From Marinibacterium sp. (lineage in GTDB: Bacteria > Pseudomonadota > Alphaproteobacteria > Rhodobacterales > Rhodobacteraceae), in contig JAEPNQ010000001.1 of assembly GCA_017643305.1 (NCBI GenBank), positions 1 to 64,000 of the forward strand: a DNA stretch of 64,000 nt, written 5' to 3'. Positions within the stretch are counted from its first letter, which is position 1, and every line of letters begins with the position of its first letter. Below are positions 5,177 to 15,988 of this stretch, one piece after another. A model generated the notes under the pieces. The model saw only the letters and a list, made by a program, of their open reading frames with translations, was not told where the DNA came from and made no database searches. Both the position numbers and the translations under genes were made by a program.

Positions 5177-5914
5177 TCACGCGAGAATGGTTTCCAGCTG
5201 CATCACCACGTCTTCAGCATCCCCGTAAAAGCCGACCTTTCGCCAGATCACCGTATTGTCCCGGAACGACAGGACCGGGTGCTCTTCGACCATCGGATTG
5301 GTGGCAAGCGCGGCAATCGCCAGCCCGTCAGCCACACGGCAAAACGCGTGAACACCGTCGAAAAGCAGGTCGATATTGTCTGGGACATACCCCGCGTTCA
5401 GCGCGTCGATGATGGGCTTGGTCGCGGGCTTTGATGGTCGCCCGATGCCCAGCACGGCGACAGTTCCATCAGAAACAAGAACGCCCTTGTACCCATGGTC
5501 CGAAAAGCGCAGCGCCGTGGTTTGCATGGTGGCTTTCTGAACCCAAAGTTCCGCATAGTCCGCCAGCACACCCGTTTCGATCATGTGCCCGTCTTCATCG
5601 AAAGAAATTGCGCCGACATCCACACCATCGGGGGTACCATGCCAGTTAATCTCGCGGTGCCAGGTGCAGTTGTCCCCGTCCAGCGTGATATGGCCCGCAA
5701 ACCCTTCGGCGCGGGCGAGGTCGGTCAGTGCAGAAGGCGACAAATCTGCGAGGCAACTCGCACCCTTATGTGCAGGCCGTTTGGCTGGGATGCGCACATC
5801 GGCATAGTCGCGCCCGGCCTGGATCCAATGAACGCGGGTTGTATCGTCATCGAAATCCGGTGCCTTGATCCAGCGCCGGACCCAGTGGCCTTGGATGGTG
5901 TCTTCGACGATCAC
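5177..5914 (-). CDS. Conserved protein of unknown function (possibly HRI1-like beta-barrel)
   Basis: A 245-residue soluble protein without signal peptide or membrane segment. It is rich in Trp, Asp and short beta-strand-like stretches such as H-W-I-Q-A-G, Y-A-D-V-R-I-P and Y-A-E-L-W. This pattern recalls the two-lobed beta-barrel proteins related to yeast HRI1 and their uncharacterised bacterial relatives, but I am not certain of the family and assign no function. It is the last gene of the ABC importer/isochorismatase operon and its start overlaps the end of the hydrolase gene by 4 nt (ATGA), so co-translation is likely and it probably serves the same substrate pathway. Confidence 0.75.
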   Translation of the reverse strand: MIVEDTIQGHWVRRWIKAPDFDDDTTRVHWIQAGRDYADVRIPAKRPAHKGASCLADLSPSALTDLARAEGFAGHITLDGDNCTWHREINWHGTPDGVDVGAISFDEDGHMIETGVLADYAELWVQKATMQTTALRFSDHGYKGVLVSDGTVAVLGIGRPSKPATKPIIDALNAGYVPDNIDLLFDGVHAFCRVADGLAIAALATNPMVEEHPVLSFRDNTVIWRKVGFYGDAEDVVMQLETILA

Positions 5915-6525
5915 TCCGCCGCCACTTGATGGGCGCTAATCGCGGCGATGATTTCGTCTGCAGACAGAACCGCGCCCTCCTGTAGGTATTCCATCGCGTT
6001 GAGCGAGGCCTTATGCGCTTCGGGCGACGTGCCGCCGACGCAATCACCAACCACCCGGCAGTAGTAGTCATGCTGATGGCCATCGGCAAAACTGTAATGC
6101 ACGCAGACATCTGTCATCCCACCGATCATGATAAGCGTTTTGGCTTTCAGACCTTTGAGCAGGATTTCTGTTTCGGTCCCAAAGAACACGGAATAGCGGC
6201 GTTTGTGGATGAAGTAATCGGTCGGCCGCATGTCCATTTCTTCTTTTGCGACCGGCGTGCCGGGTTCGCCTTCGAGACAATGGATGTCTTCTGTCCCATC
6301 CAGTTCGCGACCGTAGTCGATTTTGTTGCGACGGTGGATTTCCTGAAAAAAGATGATCGGAATATCCGCCTCATGCGCGGCATCCACGATGCGTTTGGCG
6401 CGCTCCATGTTTTCGTGATAGCCAGGCATGACGGGAATGCCTGCCTTGTAATCCATGAACGCGGATTTCTGGATGTCGATGACCAACAAGACGGCCTGAC
6501 CGACGATGGTGGGTTGGCGTGGCAT
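5911..6525 (-). CDS. Isochorismatase-family cysteine hydrolase
   Basis: Soluble 204-residue hydrolase of the isochorismatase/nicotinamidase fold. The catalytic triad is visible: Asp17 in V-I-D-I-Q, Lys108 in H-K-R-R-Y-S, and Cys141 in M-T-D-V-C-V-H. The G-G-M-T segment before the Cys supplies the usual cis-peptide oxyanion site. Such enzymes cleave C-N bonds in amides, ureido acids and related compounds, so with the upstream polyamine-type importer it probably deaminates or cleaves an imported amide. It begins 13 nt after the permease stop with a strong AGAGGAGA ribosome site, and overlaps the next gene by 4 nt. The exact substrate cannot be read from the sequence. Confidence 0.9.
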   Translation of the reverse strand: MPRQPTIVGQAVLLVIDIQKSAFMDYKAGIPVMPGYHENMERAKRIVDAAHEADIPIIFFQEIHRRNKIDYGRELDGTEDIHCLEGEPGTPVAKEEMDMRPTDYFIHKRRYSVFFGTETEILLKGLKAKTLIMIGGMTDVCVHYSFADGHQHDYYCRVVGDCVGGTSPEAHKASLNAMEYLQEGAVLSADEIIAAISAHQVAAE

Positions 6526-6538
6526 TGGAATGTCTCCT

Positions 6539-7336
6539 CTATTTGCGAGATTGATCGGCGCCCATCAGGCGCGGCAGGTCGCCCCAGCGAGCAACGGCCG
6601 AAAACACCAGAACCGAAACTGTGAGAAAAGTGATCGCGGCCACCGCCATGGTCGGCGTGTACCCGTTGCGGAGCGAGTTGAAGATTTGCAGCGTGACAGT
6701 GGCGTAAGACGACGCCGACACGAAGAAGATCACGATAAATTCGTTGAACGACAGGACCAGCACAAAGAACAGTCCTGATATCGTGTAAGGAATGGTTTGC
6801 GGCAGGACGACGGTGCGGAAGGCCACCTGTTCGGTCGCCCCCATGGTCGCAGCGGCATCCAGATGCGCGCGGTCGATGGATTGCAGGCCGATGGAAATGG
6901 TCACCAGCGGCAGCGCCATAAGCAGGATAGCATGACTGATGACACCAGCCCAAATCTCGCCCAGCCCGCCTGTGAAGGCCCAGAAAAACCCCAGCCCAAC
7001 CCCAAACACGATGGGCGGCACGGCAAACGGAAGGGAACCAAGCCCGGCCAGCGTTTTGGACAGTTTCGTTCCAGTCGACCACAGCAGGTAAGCGATGGGC
7101 CATGCCATTGCGACAGCCAGTATCGAGGCGCCCACGGCAACAATGACCGAATTCCACAGCGCAGCGGTCCAGACCGGCTCCGACACAAAGAATTCGCCAA
7201 ACCGGACAAAGGTTGGGTCAACGGGCGGGAAAAACATGCTGCGCCCCGAATTCAGCGCAGCACCACAGACAACCACGATCGGCATCGCCAGAACGAGCGA
7301 TGCCAGCCCCATATAGATCGTACCAAACGTCCGCAT
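6539..7336 (-). CDS. ABC transporter permease, PotC-like
   Basis: Inner-membrane permease of 265 residues with about six hydrophobic segments and the EAA loop (A-A-T-M-G-A, then V-V-L-P-Q-T-I-P) near residues 170-195. It is the second permease of a spermidine/putrescine-type importer. The reading frame stays open upstream to 8134, but I start at the ATG at 7336: its A is shared with the TGA of the first permease (TGATG), as expected for coupled translation, and translation from here gives a typical first membrane segment. Confidence 0.9.
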   Translation of the reverse strand: MRTFGTIYMGLASLVLAMPIVVVCGAALNSGRSMFFPPVDPTFVRFGEFFVSEPVWTAALWNSVIVAVGASILAVAMAWPIAYLLWSTGTKLSKTLAGLGSLPFAVPPIVFGVGLGFFWAFTGGLGEIWAGVISHAILLMALPLVTISIGLQSIDRAHLDAAATMGATEQVAFRTVVLPQTIPYTISGLFFVLVLSFNEFIVIFFVSASSYATVTLQIFNSLRNGYTPTMAVAAITFLTVSVLVFSAVARWGDLPRLMGADQSRK

Positions 7337-8319
7337 CACCGGCCCTCCGCCCGTCGGTTCAGAAGATGGCCAAGATACAGACAGACGCTGGCTGAAATAA
7401 GCAGGATGATCGCCTGCGTGGCCCCAAACGGCGCATTCAGGTTCGCGCCGCGGATGTTGGCATAAATAGCCACGGCGGTTGTGTGCTTGTTGGGCGCGGC
7501 AAAGACGGTGATCGACACGTAGGTGCCTAAAAGGAAGACGAACAACAACAGCGTCGTGCCCATCAATGGCAAACGGATGGACGGCAATGTCACCGTGCGG
7601 GTAACCGTCCAGCGGCTGGCACCCATGGTCCGCGCGGCCTCTCCCAGCGACGGGTCCAACCGCGACAGGGCGGGATACAGCAGGATCACCGCATAGGGCC
7701 AGACTAGGTAGCTCATCGTCAGGATGGTTGCGAAATCCGATGTCTTGAACTTGACGTTTCGGGGGTTTGCCAGCCCCCAGTCCCGCAGGGTCTGGAACCA
7801 GCCGACTTCCTTCAACCACGCCGTCAGGCCGGTTTCCTTGAAGAGTTTGGGCAGGCCCGAATTGTTCGACAGAAGGATGTCCCAGCCCATGACGATGAAC
7901 ACCTCCGACAGCGACAGCGAAGACAGGATGAACACCAGCCAAATCGCCTGCGCGCGTCGGCTCAGCCGGGTGAGCGCCAATGTAAATGGCAAGGCCGTCA
8001 CCACCGCCAGAAGCGAGGCGATCACGGCGAAGTAAAAAGAATAGTAAAGTTGCTGGAGGTAAAGAAACGTCACTTCCTGCGGCCAGAGAACACCGACAAA
8101 GAAGCGTTGATAGTTTTCCAGGGTGAAGTCCCACACCCAGGCCGCGCCATCCACTTTGCGCCCGAAGGAGATCGCCAGAACCAGAAGGAATGGGAAAACG
8201 CAGAAAACAACAATGGCCGAGGTCAGAAAGCCCAGTAGCACAGATTTGGCCGGAAAGGTCGATGTCTTGTTGGCCGATTGCACCCTATCCGGCAAAGATA
8301 TGTCGTTGGCGACAGTCAT
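7336..8319 (-). CDS. ABC transporter permease, PotB-like
   Basis: First permease of the polyamine-type importer, 327 residues, with a cytoplasmic N-terminus of about 25 residues and six or more hydrophobic segments. The EAA coupling loop (E-A-A-R-T-M-G-A, then L-P-S-I-R-L-P) lies near residues 230-255. A large extracytoplasmic loop of about 60 charged residues between the third and fourth membrane segments is somewhat longer than usual for PotB. It overlaps the ATPase stop by 4 nt upstream and the second permease by 1 nt downstream. Confidence 0.9.
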   Translation of the reverse strand: MTVANDISLPDRVQSANKTSTFPAKSVLLGFLTSAIVVFCVFPFLLVLAISFGRKVDGAAWVWDFTLENYQRFFVGVLWPQEVTFLYLQQLYYSFYFAVIASLLAVVTALPFTLALTRLSRRAQAIWLVFILSSLSLSEVFIVMGWDILLSNNSGLPKLFKETGLTAWLKEVGWFQTLRDWGLANPRNVKFKTSDFATILTMSYLVWPYAVILLYPALSRLDPSLGEAARTMGASRWTVTRTVTLPSIRLPLMGTTLLLFVFLLGTYVSITVFAAPNKHTTAVAIYANIRGANLNAPFGATQAIILLISASVCLYLGHLLNRRAEGR

Positions 8320-9368
8320 GCGGCCTCGTATCTAGGGAAGACTTGCAGCGCATCCGGCGGCAGACGCACGGTGGTCGCATCACCATTTCTGAGCTCAGGG
8401 TTTGTTTCCCCCGCCGCGTGTTCCACGATGATCGGTCCGATGTCGGACTGCAGGTGGTATTCGCGCATGGGCCCCAGATCCCGTACGAACATAACCTTGG
8501 CGGCCACACGGTTGGCGCCTGGGTCAAAGTCAATAAAGGCCCGCTCCGGGCGGATCGCAATCCGAACAGGGCTTTCTGTGCGGAAATTCGATGCGGTCTG
8601 CAAAAAGTTTTCGCCAACCAGCACGCCCCCATCCTTGCAGACGCCATCAAAGAAATTCGCCTTACCAATGAAATCCGCCACGAAAGCATTGGCCGGTTGA
8701 TGATATATCACCTGGGGCTTGGCGATCTGTTCCACCCGGCCATTTGACATCACCACGATCTGGTCGGCCATCGTCATCGCTTCGCGTTGGTCATGCGTCA
8801 CAACAATTGTTGTGATTCCCAGCTTTTGCTGCAAAAGCCGCAGTTCAACCTGCATTTCTTCGCGCAGCTTGGCGTCGAGCGCGGACATGGGTTCATCCAG
8901 CAGGAACACTTCGGGTTCCTGCGCCAGAGCGCGCGCAATGGCCACACGCTGGCGTTGCCCGCCAGACAATTCGCCGATCCGGCGATCACCAAAACCACCC
9001 AGCTGAACCGTTTCCAGCAAATTGTTGGCCTCATCCAGTGCGGTCCGTTTGTCCACGCCGCCAATGGTCAGCGAATAGGCCACGTTTTCGCGCACTGAAT
9101 AATGCGGGAACAACGCGAAGTTCTGGAAAACCATACCGAACTTACGTTTGTGCGCGGGCAACGCCGTGATGTTTTGCCCTTCCAGCAAAATGGACCCGAC
9201 GGAGGGGTCCTCCAGCCCGGCTATCATCCGCAGCAATGTGGTCTTGCCGCATCCCGATGGGCCGAGAAGCGCGGTCAGTTCCCCTTTGGCGAACTTCAGG
9301 TCTGTGGGTTCTACGGCGCGGGTGTTCCCAAATGACTTGGAAACGCCCTTCAGTTCCAATCCGTGCAT
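8316..9368 (-). CDS. ABC transporter ATP-binding protein, PotA/UgpC-like
   Basis: ATPase subunit of the importer, 350 residues. Walker A is G-P-S-G-C-G-K-T-T near residues 36-44, the Q-loop is V-F-Q-N-F-A-L, the signature is L-S-G-G-Q-R-Q-R-V near 133, Walker B is L-L-D-E-P-M-S-A-L-D, and the switch is V-T-H-D-Q. After about residue 240 comes a TOBE-like regulatory beta-domain. Length and order match PotA, CysA and FbpC; the neighbours point to a polyamine- or opine-like solute. Translation is coupled to the downstream permease. Confidence 0.92.
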   Translation of the reverse strand: MHGLELKGVSKSFGNTRAVEPTDLKFAKGELTALLGPSGCGKTTLLRMIAGLEDPSVGSILLEGQNITALPAHKRKFGMVFQNFALFPHYSVRENVAYSLTIGGVDKRTALDEANNLLETVQLGGFGDRRIGELSGGQRQRVAIARALAQEPEVFLLDEPMSALDAKLREEMQVELRLLQQKLGITTIVVTHDQREAMTMADQIVVMSNGRVEQIAKPQVIYHQPANAFVADFIGKANFFDGVCKDGGVLVGENFLQTASNFRTESPVRIAIRPERAFIDFDPGANRVAAKVMFVRDLGPMREYHLQSDIGPIIVEHAAGETNPELRNGDATTVRLPPDALQVFPRYEAA

Positions 9369-9374
9369 GACGGA

Positions 9375-10445
9375 TCAGGCTTCAGCCAGCATCTTGTCCC
9401 AGCTTTCCTTGATGAAGGTTTCGTTATCCAGATAAGCCTCGTAAGCGGGTTTGATCGCCGGAGTACCGGAAACGAAGTTGAACTCATCATCCGTCAGATC
9501 GGTCATGGATTTGTCGACAAGAGGCGCGGTGCCGATCTTGCGGCTCATCAGGGCCTGAATGGACGGCTCGGACGAAAAGTTCATGAATTCGGCCGCTTCA
9601 TCGGCCTTGTCAGACCCAGCGGTCAGGCACCAGGATCCGTAGTCCTGCAAGTTGCCTTCTTTCGGGAAGGTCGGCTTGATCGGGAAACCGTCCAGCGCCA
9701 TCAGGTTGGCCACGTCCAGATAATACTGGCCCGCAACAACGTCCCCGTTCTTCATGGACTGTTCCATCTGGCTTTCTGCTGTCCACCAAAGTGCGACGTT
9801 CGGCTTCAGCTCAGCCACTTTTTCAATGATCGCGACAATGCCATCGTCGGACATCATGGTTTCAGCACCGTCAAAGAACGTCGCAGCCGTGAAGTCGAGC
9901 AGACCGGCATTATAATTACGGCCCAAACCGAGAGAGGCCTCAAACCGGCTGCTGTCCCAGAAATCGGCCCAGCTGGCCGGTGTCTCAACTTCATTCGGGT
10001 TAAACACCATGGCCGAGAACCATGACATCGCACCGACGCCCTGTGGGCCGTCTTTGCCTTCGAACACAAAGTAGCTGTCCAGGTTGCCAGCGCCCTTGAT
10101 CTTGGTCAGGTCAAGCGGTGCGATCAAGTCCCCGATCCGGGTTGCCTTGATCATCGTGTCGCGTGCGAAAAGCGAAATATCGGCAGGGATGTTGCCCGCT
10201 GCAACGGCCTGCCGCAATGTGACAAGCCAATCGGAGGAGTTCGGCTGCGTGATGCTTTCCACCGCGATCCCGGTTGCTTTGGTGAACTCCGGATACACAT
10301 ATTCTTTGAAGCTGTTTTCAAAATACCCGCCATAAGACCCGATCTTTACGGACCTGGCCTGCGCTATCAGGGGTGTCGCCAATGTGGTGGCAGCAACACC
10401 TGCAACACCGGATTTCAGCAGGGCGCGTCTGGTCAAATTTGACAT
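9375..10445 (-). CDS. ABC transporter extracellular solute-binding protein, Tat-exported (PotD-like)
   Basis: Periplasmic binding protein of 356 residues that captures the solute for the importer encoded just downstream. The N-terminus has a twin-arginine signal, T-R-R-A-L-L-K at residues 5-11, a hydrophobic stretch and a probable cleavage after A-Q-A near residue 30, so it should be exported folded by the Tat system. The frame is open further upstream, but the ATG at 10445 has an AAAGGA ribosome site and yields the intact signal, so I start there. It is first in a six-gene minus-strand operon, and the divergent 2-oxoglutarate oxygenase gene begins about 245 nt away. Confidence 0.92.
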   Translation of the reverse strand: MSNLTRRALLKSGVAGVAATTLATPLIAQARSVKIGSYGGYFENSFKEYVYPEFTKATGIAVESITQPNSSDWLVTLRQAVAAGNIPADISLFARDTMIKATRIGDLIAPLDLTKIKGAGNLDSYFVFEGKDGPQGVGAMSWFSAMVFNPNEVETPASWADFWDSSRFEASLGLGRNYNAGLLDFTAATFFDGAETMMSDDGIVAIIEKVAELKPNVALWWTAESQMEQSMKNGDVVAGQYYLDVANLMALDGFPIKPTFPKEGNLQDYGSWCLTAGSDKADEAAEFMNFSSEPSIQALMSRKIGTAPLVDKSMTDLTDDEFNFVSGTPAIKPAYEAYLDNETFIKESWDKMLAEA

Positions 10446-10689
10446 ATTCAGTCCTTTCAGTTCCCACGACTCGGACAGACACAGCGCGGTCCGAGTCCAT
10501 TCATATTGGTTCCAATGGACATTCATCGGCGGGCCACCGGTCAATTTTTGCGATCCAAAATTCGTCAGACGTTACCGAAATTGCCCGTTTTATAAGCAAT
10601 CTGGCTGCTCTTCTTAACTTTCTTAGACAGACCAGAGTCAGCCTGCCGCCCGTTTGTGCATTCTGACAACGCACGGAAAGGGATTAATC

Positions 10690-11766
10690 ATGGCCGAAAC
10701 TGATGAAATGCAACTTACAGCTCTTACGGTGGATGACGCGACACTGCCTGTCATCGATCTTTCGGGGTTGTTCACGGGCGATACAGACGACAAGGCGCGC
10801 ATTGCCAAGGAACTGGGGGCCGCTGCCCGGACATCTGGCTTCTTCTATATCACCGGCCACGGCGTGCCGCAGAAACTGATCGATGCGGCCTTCGCAGCCT
10901 CCAAGGAGTTCCATGAAAAACCACGGTCTTTCAAGATGCAGACATGGTCCGGCTTCACCACGAACCACCGCGGTTATGTTCCTTTCGAAGAAAACGGAAG
11001 CAATTTTCCAAAGGTTATCAATTTCAACGAAGCTTGGGACATGTCCTATGAGGCGCCCGCCGATCACCCCGACTATCTGGCGGGCTGGCGGATGACCGGC
11101 CCCAATGTCTGGCCCGAGATTGACGGGTGGCGTGAAACAATTTCCGGTTACTATGACGCTGTTTTCAATCTTGGCCTTCGTATGCTCGACGCCCTTGCGC
11201 TGGAGCTTGGCGTTTCGCCCGAAGACCTGACACGTCACATCACCTGCCCGACCTCCCAGCTGCGCCTGCTGCGCTACGTCGAAAATGACATGCCGCAGAC
11301 CAAGGATGTGACCGGCATTTCGGAGCATTCGGATTTCGAATGTTTCACGATCCTTTTGCAGGGTGCGCCCGGCCTGCAGGTGATGAACGCCGATGACATG
11401 TGGATCGAAGCACCGCCCATTCCCGGCACGTTCATCGTGAACATAGGCGACATTTTTGAAACATGGTCCGGTGGGCAGTTCAAATCGACCCAGCACCGCG
11501 TGATCAATACCGGGAAGGAACGATATTCCATGCCGCTGTTCTTTGGGTTGGACTATCACGCCGTGATCGAACCGCTGGAGAAGTTCCGGACGCCCGAAAC
11601 CGCGGCCAAGTACCCACCGATGAAAGCAGGTGACCATTTGATGCGTATGTCCGTGAACGCATTCCGTTACATGGCTGAAGCTAGGGAAAACGGCGTGTTC
11701 ACACCGGATTATGAAGTGCCCGACGAAAACCCGTTCAAACGCGACGCAAAAGAACCAGCAAAATAA
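10690..11766 (+). CDS. 2-oxoglutarate/Fe(II)-dependent oxygenase, isopenicillin N synthase family
   Basis: Soluble 358-residue oxygenase. The N-terminal DIOX_N segment has I-D-L-S-G near 22 and G-F-F-Y-I-T-G-H-G-V near 50-59. The iron ligands are His213 and Asp215 in E-H-S-D-F and His269 in T-Q-H-R-V; Arg278 with Ser280 (R-Y-S) should bind 2-oxoglutarate. I start at the ATG at 10690 because AAAGGGA precedes it; an earlier in-frame ATG at 10654 lacks a site. The family includes enzymes that hydroxylate free amino acids, among them arginine and homoarginine, and a guanidinase-like gene lies 2.4 kb downstream, but a link is speculation. It is followed 1 nt later by the next gene. Confidence 0.9.
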   Translation: MAETDEMQLTALTVDDATLPVIDLSGLFTGDTDDKARIAKELGAAARTSGFFYITGHGVPQKLIDAAFAASKEFHEKPRSFKMQTWSGFTTNHRGYVPFEENGSNFPKVINFNEAWDMSYEAPADHPDYLAGWRMTGPNVWPEIDGWRETISGYYDAVFNLGLRMLDALALELGVSPEDLTRHITCPTSQLRLLRYVENDMPQTKDVTGISEHSDFECFTILLQGAPGLQVMNADDMWIEAPPIPGTFIVNIGDIFETWSGGQFKSTQHRVINTGKERYSMPLFFGLDYHAVIEPLEKFRTPETAAKYPPMKAGDHLMRMSVNAFRYMAEARENGVFTPDYEVPDENPFKRDAKEPAK

Positions 11767-11767
11767 C

Positions 11768-12229
11768 ATGGACCCGCATCCGGATTTTGCGGCTGTCGAC
11801 TGGCCGCGACACTTTGCTCTTGGTGGTTTCCTGCTTACCCCGCTGGCACATGCGTTTGTTGACGAAGACTATGCCGCTGTGTTGGCTACAGCGCCTTTGT
11901 TCGATGGCATTTTCGGCACGTGGCCCGAAGGATTGACGCTAGAAGACAACCTGATTGACCTGGCCTGGCACGACCGGGAATTCACGGCCCGGCGGTCGTT
12001 TTCCTGGATCGTTCGGGATGCGCAGGGGACCTATATCGGATGTTTTTACCTCTTTCCCGAACTCGGGACGCGAGGCAGGGCCAAGGCGGCTTTGTGGCTT
12101 TGTGATGTTTCGGACCGTGTTTCGGTCGCGGAGACATTGAAAGATGCGCTCGCGTCTTGGCTTGCAACCAACCTCCCTCCCGGCATTGAAGTAGCCTGGA
12201 CCACGCGACCGCACACAGGAGCGACATGA
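11768..12229 (+). CDS. GNAT-like N-acetyltransferase family protein
   Basis: Soluble 153-residue protein that resembles short GNAT-fold acetyltransferases: a segment F-S-W-I-V-R-D followed by Y-I-G-C-F-Y-L-F-P matches the beta4-beta5 core that binds acetyl-CoA, and the length is right. The usual Q/R-x-x-G-x-G/A pyrophosphate motif is weak (R-G-R-A-K-A near residue 100), so activity is uncertain. It starts just after the oxygenase stop and overlaps the following hydrolase gene by 4 nt (ATGA). I have no substrate to propose. Confidence 0.7.
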   Translation: MDPHPDFAAVDWPRHFALGGFLLTPLAHAFVDEDYAAVLATAPLFDGIFGTWPEGLTLEDNLIDLAWHDREFTARRSFSWIVRDAQGTYIGCFYLFPELGTRGRAKAALWLCDVSDRVSVAETLKDALASWLATNLPPGIEVAWTTRPHTGAT

Positions 12230-13017
12230 TGACTTTACCTGTTGCCGACAACTGGTTCGAGGCCAGGAAGATCGACGCCGACACAACGCTGATTATCGAG
12301 CCGCATATTCATGTACTCGAACAGGCCAACATGTTCCTTGTTGAGGGCAGTGAACGGGACATGATCCTCGATACCGGCATGGGCGTGATCCCGTTCAGGC
12401 CATATCTCGACAGCCTGCGCCAGGACCCCGAAAAAGAGATCATCTGCGTATCGTCCCACACGCACATCGATCACATAGGGGCGGTCCATGAATTCGAAAT
12501 CCGTCTGGTCCACCCAGCCGAGGCAGATGAAATGGCAAACCCTTCCGGTCTTACATCTCTGTTCCGCCGGGATATGCCCAAGGCCCTTTTGCAGACCTTT
12601 CTGGATGCAGGCTACCCGCCGATTGGCGAAACCCTCATCGAAGCGCTGCCATTTGAGGGGTACGATCCCGAAACCTACCGCCTGCAGGGCGCACCCGCGA
12701 CCGGGTTGCTGAACCACGGCGACACTTTCGATCTGGGCAATCACGTTTACGAGGTCCTGCATCTGCCGGGGCATTCGCCGGGCGAGATCGGGTTGTTCGA
12801 GCATGAGACCGGCATCTTGTTTAGCGCAGATGCGATTTATGACGGGCCATTAATCTACGAAGGTCCGGGGATGAGCGTAGACGCTTACCGAAAAACGTTC
12901 AACCTATTGAAATCTCTTCCGGTTATGACGGTCCATGGCGGGCACGACCCCAGCTTTGATAGTGCGCGGATGTTGGAGATTATTGCCCATTACGAAGCGC
13001 TTTGGGCGGCGGCCTGA
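12226..13017 (+). CDS. MBL-fold metallohydrolase
   Basis: Metallo-beta-lactamase-fold hydrolase of 263 residues without a signal peptide. The metal site is H-T-H-I-D-H at residues 78-83, with further ligands in L-P-G-H-S-P-G-E-I near 182, S-A-D-A-I-Y near 201 and V-H-G-G-H-D near 240. The layout resembles glyoxalase II-like and other thioester or lactone hydrolases. Two ATG codons stand together at 12226 and 12229; either may be used. It is the last gene of the oxygenase operon. Confidence 0.88.
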   Translation: MMTLPVADNWFEARKIDADTTLIIEPHIHVLEQANMFLVEGSERDMILDTGMGVIPFRPYLDSLRQDPEKEIICVSSHTHIDHIGAVHEFEIRLVHPAEADEMANPSGLTSLFRRDMPKALLQTFLDAGYPPIGETLIEALPFEGYDPETYRLQGAPATGLLNHGDTFDLGNHVYEVLHLPGHSPGEIGLFEHETGILFSADAIYDGPLIYEGPGMSVDAYRKTFNLLKSLPVMTVHGGHDPSFDSARMLEIIAHYEALWAAA

Positions 13018-13031
13018 GCCACGCTAAGACG

Positions 13032-13061
13032 CGTTTCGCGCGATTGAAGGGGTGCGAAACG
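13032..13061. terminator. Possible terminator hairpin after the oxygenase operon
   Basis: An 8-bp perfect inverted repeat (CGTTTCGC / GCGAAACG, 13032-13039 with 13054-13061) with a 14-nt loop begins 15 nt after the hydrolase stop. There is no T-run, so termination strength is doubtful. Confidence 0.35.
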
Positions 13062-13213
13062 GGAGTGACCTGGTCGTTTCAGGTCCCAAATCCGACTCTT
13101 CTCGCCTATTTTTTGCACTTCCAAAGACATTCCGCCTAAAAATTGCGCACCAACGCATGCGACCGCACGACTGCGCTAGAAATCGTGGGCCAGCCTCCCG
13201 CCCGGCCCCGTAC

Positions 13214-13340
13214 CGTGGACTTGCAGGGTGTCTAGGGTTCCGTCGGTCGGAAGGCAGAGCTGGTCCGAGAGACGCCGCCACATTGGCAAATTCCAATGCG
13301 GTACACGGCGGGACAAAATCCCGGGAGAGCACTGCGACCG
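13214..13340 (+). promoter_or_regulatory. Guanidine-I (ykkC) riboswitch
   Basis: The stretch contains, in order, the conserved blocks of the guanidine-I riboswitch: CTAGGGTTCCG at 13232-13242, GGTCCGAGAGA at 13262-13272, ACACGGCGGGA at 13303-13313 and CCCGGGAGA at 13320-13328. Bases 13221-13229 pair with 13329-13337 to form P1, with one mismatch and two wobble pairs, which closes the aptamer. These blocks are specific to the class that binds free guanidinium and turns genes on. It stands 65 nt before the first reading frame of a broken ABC importer and upstream of a guanidine-hydrolase-like gene, which fits perfectly. The expression platform is not obvious; control could act on the TGGAGG ribosome site at 13391. 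Confidence 0.92.
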
Positions 13341-13401
13341 TTCGGCCGCGTCTCTCTGTGTTGTCTCCGGTCAGGTTCACACACTCGATTTGGAGGTCAA
13401 G

Positions 13402-13665
13402 ATGAAACGTTTCCTGATCGCCGCAGAGGCCATCGCCAGCAAAAACGGTTTAGGTTATCGCATCTTCCTTGTGCGCCGATACCTCGCGATGGACATCATC
13501 CTGACCTACGTCATCTGGATCACGTTCCTCGCCTCTCTGATTGATTGGCTGCTACGCGTGGCATCCCGCCGGTTCTACCCGTGGGCGGAGCAGACCTGGT
13601 GCGCTTTGGAACGGTATCCGACATGTTCCAGACCGACGATCAACGCCCGATCCTGGAGAGGGTGA
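13402..13665 (+). pseudogene. Remnant of ABC importer permease (taurine/nitrate-type), with possible binding-protein start
   Basis: Only about 60 residues of the end of a SsuC/TauC-type permease survive. The tail E-A-I-A-S-K-N-G-L-G-Y-R-I-F, then R-R-Y-L-A-M-D, then W-I-T-F-L-A followed by L-I-D-W-L-L-R is the usual C-terminal membrane hairpin of that family; the preceding 200 residues, including the EAA loop, are missing. The frame begins with M-K-R-F-L-I behind a good TGGAGG site, which looks like the start of a binding-protein signal peptide. My reading is that one deletion joined the start of the binding-protein gene to the end of the permease gene. It lies directly behind the guanidine riboswitch, so the lost importer was probably for guanidine. 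Confidence 0.75.
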
Positions 13666-14163
13666 ATGTGTCAGTCGACGAAGGCGAATTCATTTCGATC
13701 GTTAGGGCCTCCGGCTGTGGCATATCCACCTTTCTCCGCCCGCGCGCGCGCCGACGAAACGCTTGCCCGGATCGGGCTGAACCATGTTGCAGACAATTAT
13801 CCGATGACCCTTTCGGGCGACATGCAGCAACGGCTGGCCATTGGTCAGGCGCTGACCGCCAAACCCAGCGTTTTTCTGTTGGATGAACCTTTTGGCGCAC
13901 TCGATCCGGGCACACGCCTGTCGATGCGCAACTTCCTGCAAGAACTGCGCGCGGAAACCGGCATGACCGTGTTCATGGTCACCCACGATCTGGAAGAAGC
14001 GTTCAAGCTGGGTGACCGGGTTCTGGTCTTCGCCAAACCTCGCTGGGGCCCACACGATCCGTCCCGCTATTGGGCCACGATCACCTACGATTTCGATGCG
14101 CGCGAAGGCAGCATCCCATACCAACAAGTGAAGGAGAATACCCATGTTGTGCAAGAACACTGA
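13582..14163 (+). pseudogene. Remnant of ABC importer ATPase (SsuB/TauB-type)
   Basis: Two parts of one ATPase gene are recognisable in different frames. The first part carries V-R-F-G-T-V-S-D-M-F and a ruined Walker A, S-G-C-G-I-S-T, where the invariant Lys is Ile. After about 13735 the frame changes and roughly 80 residues, including the Q-loop, are absent. The second part resumes with a helical region, the signature L-S-G-D-M-Q-Q-R (normally L-S-G-G), Walker B F-L-L-D-E-P and V-T-H-D-L, and runs to a stop inside the next gene. With the Lys lost, a frameshift and a deletion it cannot be a working ATPase. It overlaps the start of the guanidinase-like gene by 20 nt. Confidence 0.82.
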
Positions 14164-15388
14164 GAGATCGCGGTCGCACCATCCGCGTGACCACCAACAT
14201 ACCGAGGCCCGGTTCCACCATCCGGATCTGACCAAGCTGCAGGGCTGGAGATCGATGAAGGCCGAAGCCGACATTCCGGGCAACCGTTGGGACGAAGAAC
14301 GCCGCTGGGCCCTGCGCATGGGGCTGACCGGCGCCGACAGCATCGAAGACAAATCTATTCCCACCTTCGCCCGGGGTGAGCTGCCCCATTACGCGGGGAT
14401 CAATACCTTTCTCAAAGCGCCATACGCCGAAGACGTCACGGAGGTAAATGACTATGATGCAACCGTTTTGGGCATCCCGTTTGATGGGGGCACCACATAC
14501 CGCGCCGGCACCCGTTTTGGACCTCAGGGCGTTCGCAAAATCAGTGCGCTCTATACGCCATACAACTATGAAATGGCGGTCGATCTTCGGGAACAAATGA
14601 CATTGTGCGATGCAGGCGACGTGTTCACGATCCCTGCGAATATCGAAAAGACCTTTGACCAGATCAGCCGCGCTGTCAGCCATGTCGCGTCGTCCGGTTC
14701 GCTGCCCATCATGATCGGTGGCGACCATTCCATCGGGTTCCCTTGTGTGCGCGGCATTGCAGAATGCACCTCCAAAAAGATCGGCATCGTCCATTTTGAT
14801 CGCCACGCGGACATACAGGAAAAGGATCTGGATGAACGGATGCACACCACACCTTGGTTCCATTCAACCAACCTGCCGAACGTACCCGCCAAAAACCTTG
14901 TTCAGGTGGGCATCGGCGGCTGGCAGGTCCCGCGCGAAGCCGTGGCCGTTGCCCGCGAACGGGAAACCAATATCATAACTATGTCAGATATGGAGCGGAT
15001 GGGCGTCGACAAAACCGCCGAAATGGCGCTGGAGATGGCATGGGACGGCGTCGACATGGTCTACATGTCCTTCGATATCGACAGTATCGACTGCGGTTTT
15101 GTACCTGGCACGGGTTGGCCCGAGCCCGGAGGCTTCCTGCCGCGCGAGGCACTGGCACTGGCATCAAAGGTCGCAGCCGAAGGGATCTGCGGCATGGAGC
15201 TGGTGGAGGTTGCCCCGCCCTATGACCAATCCGAGATCACTGCGCTGATGGCCACACGAGTGATCGTCGATGTGCTGGGGTCTCTGGTGGCCTCCGGCAA
15301 GCTGGGCGCGCACAAGCGTCATATCGACAAGCCCGTCACCATCCCGCACGGCGAATTTGAAGGAAAGCGCTGGTCCAATGCCACATGA
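14144..15388 (+). CDS. Guanidine hydrolase-like ureohydrolase (GdmH type, arginase/agmatinase superfamily)
   Basis: Cytoplasmic ureohydrolase of 414 residues, predicted to release urea and ammonia from guanidine. Binuclear-metal ligands are His195 (G-G-D-H-S), Asp219, His221 and Asp223 (F-D-R-H-A-D-I-Q), and Asp311 and Asp313 (S-F-D-I-D). Agmatinases are about 310 residues; this one has an N-terminal extension of roughly 90 residues and the segment D-L-D-E-R-M-H-T-T-P-W-F-H after the second metal motif, which I associate with cyanobacterial guanidine hydrolase GdmH. The guanidine-I riboswitch upstream agrees. A strong AAGGAGA site fixes the ATG. GdmH enzymes use nickel and need chaperones, but no hypA/hypB-like pair is present here; a His-rich protein follows instead. 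Agmatinase activity is the alternative, less likely in this setting. Confidence 0.88.
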   Translation: MLCKNTERSRSHHPRDHQHTEARFHHPDLTKLQGWRSMKAEADIPGNRWDEERRWALRMGLTGADSIEDKSIPTFARGELPHYAGINTFLKAPYAEDVTEVNDYDATVLGIPFDGGTTYRAGTRFGPQGVRKISALYTPYNYEMAVDLREQMTLCDAGDVFTIPANIEKTFDQISRAVSHVASSGSLPIMIGGDHSIGFPCVRGIAECTSKKIGIVHFDRHADIQEKDLDERMHTTPWFHSTNLPNVPAKNLVQVGIGGWQVPREAVAVARERETNIITMSDMERMGVDKTAEMALEMAWDGVDMVYMSFDIDSIDCGFVPGTGWPEPGGFLPREALALASKVAAEGICGMELVEVAPPYDQSEITALMATRVIVDVLGSLVASGKLGAHKRHIDKPVTIPHGEFEGKRWSNAT

Positions 15389-15812
15389 TATCGTGAACGG
15401 CCATATTGGCCACAATCATAGCCACAGCCATGGCGAACATCTTCACAGTCACATGCCGGATGCAGATAGGGCCGAGGAACTTCAGGTCCTGACAACCCAG
15501 TTCATCGATGGGTTTACCGCTGCCAAAGACAAGATGTCTTATCTGCGGCTGGCCGGTGTGCCACTGGAAATCCCGGCCCCCGACGGCGGGCCATCGATGA
15601 AGCTCGTGGACGTGCAGCTCACCACGGAATGGCAAGTCGGCACCGCCTCCCCGTCCTTTGGGTCACGTGATTTGTCTTATTTGCCTTATCCCGGCGAAAT
15701 GGTGACTGAGCGTACCAACATGAGCTTTATCTATGTGTCACTGGACAGCAAAGAGGTCACTGATCTGAGAAGCTTTTTGCAAAACCATCCGGCGGCAAAG
15801 GAAACGGTATGA
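15378..15812 (+). CDS. His-rich protein of unknown function, coupled to the guanidinase gene
   Basis: A 144-residue soluble protein I do not recognise. The first 25 residues hold nine histidines, arranged mostly as alternating H-x-H (H-N-H-S-H-S-H-G-E-H-L-H-S-H), a typical chelating tail for Ni, Zn or Co. The remaining 115 residues form a compact acidic domain with no known catalytic motif; one stretch, Y-L-P-Y-P-G-E-M-V-T-E-R-T-N-M-S-F, is likely conserved. I start at the ATG at 15378, behind AAGGAAAG; it overlaps the guanidinase stop by 11 nt. Because the enzyme upstream probably needs nickel, a metal-delivery or storage role is a reasonable guess, not a demonstrated one. Confidence 0.82.
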   Translation: MPHDIVNGHIGHNHSHSHGEHLHSHMPDADRAEELQVLTTQFIDGFTAAKDKMSYLRLAGVPLEIPAPDGGPSMKLVDVQLTTEWQVGTASPSFGSRDLSYLPYPGEMVTERTNMSFIYVSLDSKEVTDLRSFLQNHPAAKETV

Positions 15813-15988
15813 AGCGTCTTGCACTGGCCTTGGCAGTTGTTGCTGCCCCGGCCCATGCCCATCACGAGGTGGTTGTTGTTTCCTCAATCCTGCCAGTGCT
15901 AAGCGGCCTCGCGCTTGTTACCACAGCAGGCGTGGCCGCGCTGCGCCGATGGCTGCGGGACAACGCTTGGAACAGCCTCAAGGACTGA
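15809..15988 (+). CDS. Small exported or membrane peptide (59 aa) at the end of the guanidinase operon
   Basis: The frame encodes a signal peptide (M-K-R-L-A-L-A-L-A-V-V-A-A-P-A-H-A), then H-H-E-V-V-V-V, a second hydrophobic stretch of about 20 residues and a basic end R-R-W-L-R-D. This predicts a periplasmic N-terminus with up to three histidines and a single membrane anchor with its tail in the cytoplasm. The start overlaps the stop of the His-rich gene by 4 nt (ATGA), so it is very likely translated despite its size. Histidines again suggest metal handling. I know no family for it. Confidence 0.72.
   Translation: MKRLALALAVVAAPAHAHHEVVVVSSILPVLSGLALVTTAGVAALRRWLRDNAWNSLKD

Follow-up and report, generated by a model that had tools for sequence, protein, structure and literature searches.

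The window, i.e. the whole 64,000-nucleotide stretch analysed here, carried a guanidine-I riboswitch aptamer at positions 13221-13329 of the + strand. It was the sole RF00442 match when the whole window was scanned with cmscan and it spanned the complete model (1-107 of 107) with 80.8 bits (E 8.4e-13), the gathering score of this model being 63 bits. A permissive scan (E up to 1) returned no other Rfam family at 13150-13420. The riboswitch class given in the original prediction was thus confirmed, and its limits (13214-13340) did enclose the element but were a few bases too wide on each side. The four conserved blocks on which it relied were all present: CUAGGGUUCCG, CUGGUCCGAGAG, ACACGG and AAAAUCCCGGGAG formed the invariant or near-invariant core in an alignment of 28 aptamers of the family, and 27 of the 29 model pairs can form in the window aptamer. 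A genome search found it to be the single RF00442 copy of its host. Among 395 genomes of the family (about one per genus), 66 displayed an RF00442 match, 58 of which exceeded the cut-off.

The element was originally placed at the head of a ureohydrolase operon. It does head the operon, but the ureohydrolase is only the first intact gene, 815 bp past the aptamer and behind wrecked importer genes. Neither these genes nor the upstream module described below figured in the original prediction. This gene, gdmH (14144-15388, + strand, PF00491), encodes a protein matching guanidinase structures 9fek and 7esr/7oi1 at E 1e-160 (next structure, 6e-49) and displaying 65% identity to Synechocystis GdmH over 306 columns. 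Guanidine specificity is set by Thr97 and Trp305 in Synechocystis numbering (PMC11410670); both residues were encountered in the window protein, as T118 and W325 (chain offset by 2). Judged by its sequence, the window ureohydrolase is therefore a guanidinase; the protein suffices for this assignment, with which the riboswitch is consistent. Guanidine as the likely substrate had been rightly proposed, but not the view that the riboswitch fixed it more firmly than protein similarity, which was already decisive. The enzyme probably depends on nickel, like its family. Urea could be used further, two urease-alpha genes being present in the host genome. Both the riboswitch and the guanidinase are members of already known kinds (PMC11410670, PMC12186494).

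A small His-rich protein of 144 aa (15378-15812, + strand) is encoded next, with an 11-nt overlap with gdmH, which it also follows in relatives. The histidines of its NHxH and HLHSH motifs were invariant in 16 sequences from 16 genera, and no match was obtained in Pfam, NCBIfam or among PDB folds (fold search at E 0.001 or better). It is a candidate nickel-delivery partner of GdmH, replacing GhaA/GhaB. A tiny frame of 59 aa with a signal-like start (15809-15988) overlaps the stop of the His-rich gene by 3 nt.

Importer remnants and leader

The comparison set consisted of 80 loci bearing close relatives of the window guanidinase. A model built from family aptamers detected the riboswitch in 78 of them, the remaining two being L057, whose contig begins inside the permease, and L062, a marine single-cell genome in which gdmH and the His-rich gene occur without upstream riboswitch or guanidine importer. 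All 78 riboswitch loci displayed a binding protein, a permease and an ATPase between riboswitch and guanidinase, and these were whole in 75. The importer ATPase frame was broken in L084 and L087, which hints at recurring importer loss, and the importer region of L088 included a run of 450 Ns. Two further loci displayed the binding protein and the remaining importer operon under two separate guanidine-I riboswitches (L141, at 4412 and 18622; L174, at 8137-8236 and 12678-12778).

No intact riboswitch-controlled guanidine ABC importer was found in the window. What remains of the binding-protein gene is its start (Shine-Dalgarno 13392-13396, ATG 13402), fused straight to the last 61 permease residues; the resulting fusion frame (13402-13665, + strand) resembles the permease over residues 208-268 alone, at 83% identity. 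This open frame was considered as a genuine gene and rejected after comparison with relatives, which identified it as a permease stump. The importer ATPase persisted as a pseudogene (13599-14163, + strand), delimited by nucleotide alignment to locus L031. Its lesions comprised a frameshifting deletion of ~203 nt, replacement of the Walker A lysine by isoleucine and conversion of LSGG to LSGD, and its best open frame covered 55%. The binding protein was absent from all contigs of the host genome, the same query being positive in four out of four control genomes.

Substitution patterns against three relatives differed between remnants and enzyme. The ratio pN/pS was 0.25-0.32 for the permease stump (0.08-0.21 for intact pairs) and 0.14-0.17 for the ATPase remnant (0.07-0.09 for intact pairs), while gdmH displayed 0.07-0.09, equal to the values between relatives with intact operons; synonymous sites were near saturation, so all these ratios are rough. 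Being raised in the remnants and unchanged in gdmH, they indicate that constraint was relaxed on the importer and not on the enzyme, and gdmH remains under purifying selection. Guanidine could nevertheless enter by some other permease.

The expression platform (13330-13401, + strand), delineated by alignment with 15 relatives, still includes the GGAGG Shine-Dalgarno motif (13392-13396) that belonged to the lost binding-protein gene. An intrinsic terminator was rejected as its mechanism, since none was found on the + strand at 12900-14200 and 15 of 16 leaders lacked a T-run of four or more. In the 15 relatives, the first gene has its Shine-Dalgarno buried in a helix (93% of helix cells paired) and the two-helix leader structure had 95% of its cells paired, against at most 46% in a slid control. 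Pairs of the sequestering helix were kept with one-sided changes alone and no compensatory changes, so that covariation gives no proof of it. The window leader has diverged from those of its relatives; its Shine-Dalgarno was also predicted to be paired, and enforcing the aptamer in silico left it paired instead of freed. Control by the switch is predicted to be translational. As the three genes directly behind the ancestral switch are destroyed, control of gdmH must span a 0.8-kb remnant. The fusion frame closes with a TGA abutted by ATG 13666, which opens the C-terminal frame of the ATPase pseudogene; this frame reaches 14163, beyond the gdmH start at 14144; these abutting and overlapping frames therefore leave an unbroken ribosome path from switch to gdmH despite the deletions, an arrangement that may be due to chance.

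Upstream module

A conserved module (5177-13017) was encountered upstream of the riboswitch. On the - strand, it includes genes for an MgdL-like lyase (5177-5914), an isochorismatase-like hydrolase (5911-6525; PF00857, E 1e-35) whose best PDB match was a biuret hydrolase and which is conserved in the module, and a polyamine-type ABC importer (6539-10454) with two permeases, an ATPase and a binding protein in conserved order (PF13416, PF00005 with TOBE_2, weak PotD/PotF matches). The + strand carries a 2-oxoglutarate/Fe(II) dioxygenase (10690-11766; PF14226 and PF03171), a small protein (11768-12229) and a metallo-beta-lactamase-fold hydrolase (12226-13017; PF00753) conserved beside the other module genes. 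The small protein was conserved in tblastn searches and follows the dioxygenase in most module copies; it displayed no Pfam or NCBIfam match.

Other genera carried the set as well, close to their riboswitch-gdmH operon and with its blocks differently arranged. Dioxygenases of the window type were found in 17 of 390 genomes (one per genus), of which 15 also harbored the guanidinase (Fisher 1.6e-12) and 16 the riboswitch; in nine of the 17, no more than 13 kb separated the dioxygenase from riboswitch or gdmH. The Fisher test takes no account of relatedness above the genus level; more weight falls on the linkage, seen in several gene orders. The polyamine-type transporter was always accompanied by dioxygenase and lyase. 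Module genes occurred within the locus in 10 of the 80 gdmH loci, and no MgdL-like protein was found on plasmids. Most module-bearing genomes retained the guanidine importer; the module is therefore no general replacement for it, and the loss in the window is a special case.

Lyase and dioxygenase

Assignment of the lyase relied on locus L171, which was reached by a phylum-wide profile search. There, a Gd-I riboswitch is followed by an importer, two small genes that occupy the position of cgdA/B and a Gd-II riboswitch, and then by a gene for a carboxylase-like protein of 1215 aa, a dioxygenase and a 225-aa protein. This is the layout published for the Vreelandella boliviensis operon together with MgdH and MgdL (PMC12508155). 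The catalytic pair of MgdL is D49 and R51 (PMC12508155), and the 225-aa protein carries Asp 49 and Arg 51; it was taken as MgdL-type on the strength of the operon layout and the residue numbering rather than an accession. The window protein at 5177-5914 was homologous to it (blastp E 3e-12, hhalign 98%) and displayed the pair at D39 and R41; additional W, D and E residues were also retained. Structure prediction (pLDDT 77) gave a beta-rich model that matched the fold of yeast Hri1 (3rby), in agreement with a weak Pfam match. At the sequence level, this protein is MgdL-like and a putative lyase.

The HxD..H and RxS residues of the window dioxygenase (H213, D215, H269, R278 and S280) were invariant. 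MgdH was considered as its identity and ruled out by the tree: the window and L171 dioxygenases shared 43% identity and fell into separate clades (support 100/100), which is why the window enzyme, in a clade of its own, was not called MgdH.

Possible internal source of guanidine

The explanation we favor, with moderate confidence, is that an N-substituted guanidine is imported, that the module frees guanidine from it inside the cell, and that the guanidine so freed is both the ligand of the switch and the substrate of the guanidinase, making the guanidine importer dispensable. The polyamine-type transporter would import the N-substituted compound, the dioxygenase would hydroxylate it beside a guanidino nitrogen and the MgdL-like lyase would cleave the resulting hemiaminal into guanidine and an aldehyde; of the module, only importer, dioxygenase and lyase are assigned steps. 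Internal guanidine would then bind the riboswitch, probably exposing the ribosome-binding site and inducing the guanidinase, which would yield urea and ammonia, with urease completing the breakdown. Under such internal release, an importer for guanidine could be dispensed with here. The substrate class, the order of reactions and the mode of the switch are those that we infer from gene content and leader structure. Several points weaken this explanation: the dioxygenase lies outside the MgdH clade, most module genomes keep the guanidine importer, the isochorismatase-like and lactamase-fold proteins have no part in it, enforcement of the aptamer left the Shine-Dalgarno unfreed, and another permease might still bring guanidine in. 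More tentatively, and with somewhat less than even confidence, a guanidine riboswitch operon may here have turned from an uptake circuit into an internally fed one, with a new dioxygenase clade, an MgdL-type lyase and a dedicated importer that would serve, in marine Rhodobacterales, the cleavage of an N-substituted guanidine other than methylguanidine.

The destroyed importer genes and the diverged leader would also be expected if guanidine use were being lost altogether, the importer first and the riboswitch and guanidinase as relics to follow, beside an unrelated module. Such decay is unlikely: neither gdmH nor the His-rich gene is damaged, and both are held to the constraint seen where the operon is whole; the riboswitch retains each of its four blocks, and other genera also carry the module in linkage with gdmH. 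Somewhat less plausibly, the polyamine-type transporter might carry guanidine itself, leaving the dioxygenase pathway to another purpose: its genes are undamaged and conserved in the vicinity of gdmH, and other organisms do use other importers, comammox Nitrospira for instance an APC permease (PMC11410670). In relatives with the module, however, both transporters persist, so that their substrates likely differ, and the constant company of dioxygenase and lyase also speaks against this reading. We give little credence to a guanidinase that merely clears guanidine arising as a side-product, with the importer unneeded and any nitrogen gain incidental. Detoxification is a known role for genes under guanidine riboswitches, but known cases work by export (PMC12186494), and linkage to a catabolic module bearing its own importer would be left unexplained. 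Finally, an importer intact in the organism and mis-assembled in this draft genome of 164 contigs is highly improbable given several independent lesions across genes, including the Walker A and signature point mutations, relaxed substitution, and the lack of any contig with the binding protein in a genome 99% complete.

The natural origin of free guanidine is an open question (PMC12186494) and known guanidine-releasing enzymes are few (PMC11018352, PMC12508155). A conserved gene set found together with guanidinase in a range of genera, which here sits beside an importer-less operon, points to a specific candidate source; if the internally fed reading were true, it would name a natural one. It also calls for caution, as the ligand of a riboswitch would be no guide to the compound taken up by the cell.

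Compared with the gdmH operons of Synechocystis PCC 6803 and comammox Nitrospira (PMC11410670, PMC12186494), riboswitch class, guanidinase and operon logic were alike. The window differs by lacking a working importer and by displaying a His-rich protein where no GhaA/GhaB-type chaperone genes were seen in the operon, and its relatives by a leader that sequesters the Shine-Dalgarno instead of a terminator. Plant homoarginine-6-hydroxylases and the ethylene-forming enzyme are also guanidine-releasing 2-oxoglutarate dioxygenases, acting on larger guanidino substrates (PMC11018352); there, the hydroxylated product decays spontaneously, whereas the window dioxygenase has a lyase-like companion. A narrow literature search for guanidinase together with Rhodobacter gave no match. 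What appear to be new variants are the importer-less operon, the His-rich partner and the Rhodobacterales module, whose dioxygenase forms a separate clade.

A close parallel to the module is the demethylation of methylguanidine in V. boliviensis by the methylguanidine hydroxylase MgdH and the N-(hydroxymethyl)guanidine lyase MgdL; hydroxylase-lyase logic was already known for the carboxylase pathway in halophiles (PMC12508155). Both systems place a dioxygenase and a lyase with a D-x-R motif beside guanidine genes and a guanidine-I riboswitch. The window differs in having a guanidinase instead of the carboxylase pathway, a dioxygenase from a separate clade, and a module with its own polyamine-type importer and isochorismatase-like and lactamase-fold genes, which sits outside the riboswitch operon. 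Four other loci (L168, L169, L170 and L172) combined MgdL-like and isochorismatase-like genes with a guanidine-I riboswitch and displayed no dioxygenase match within the locus; their MgdL-like proteins may act on another hemiaminal.
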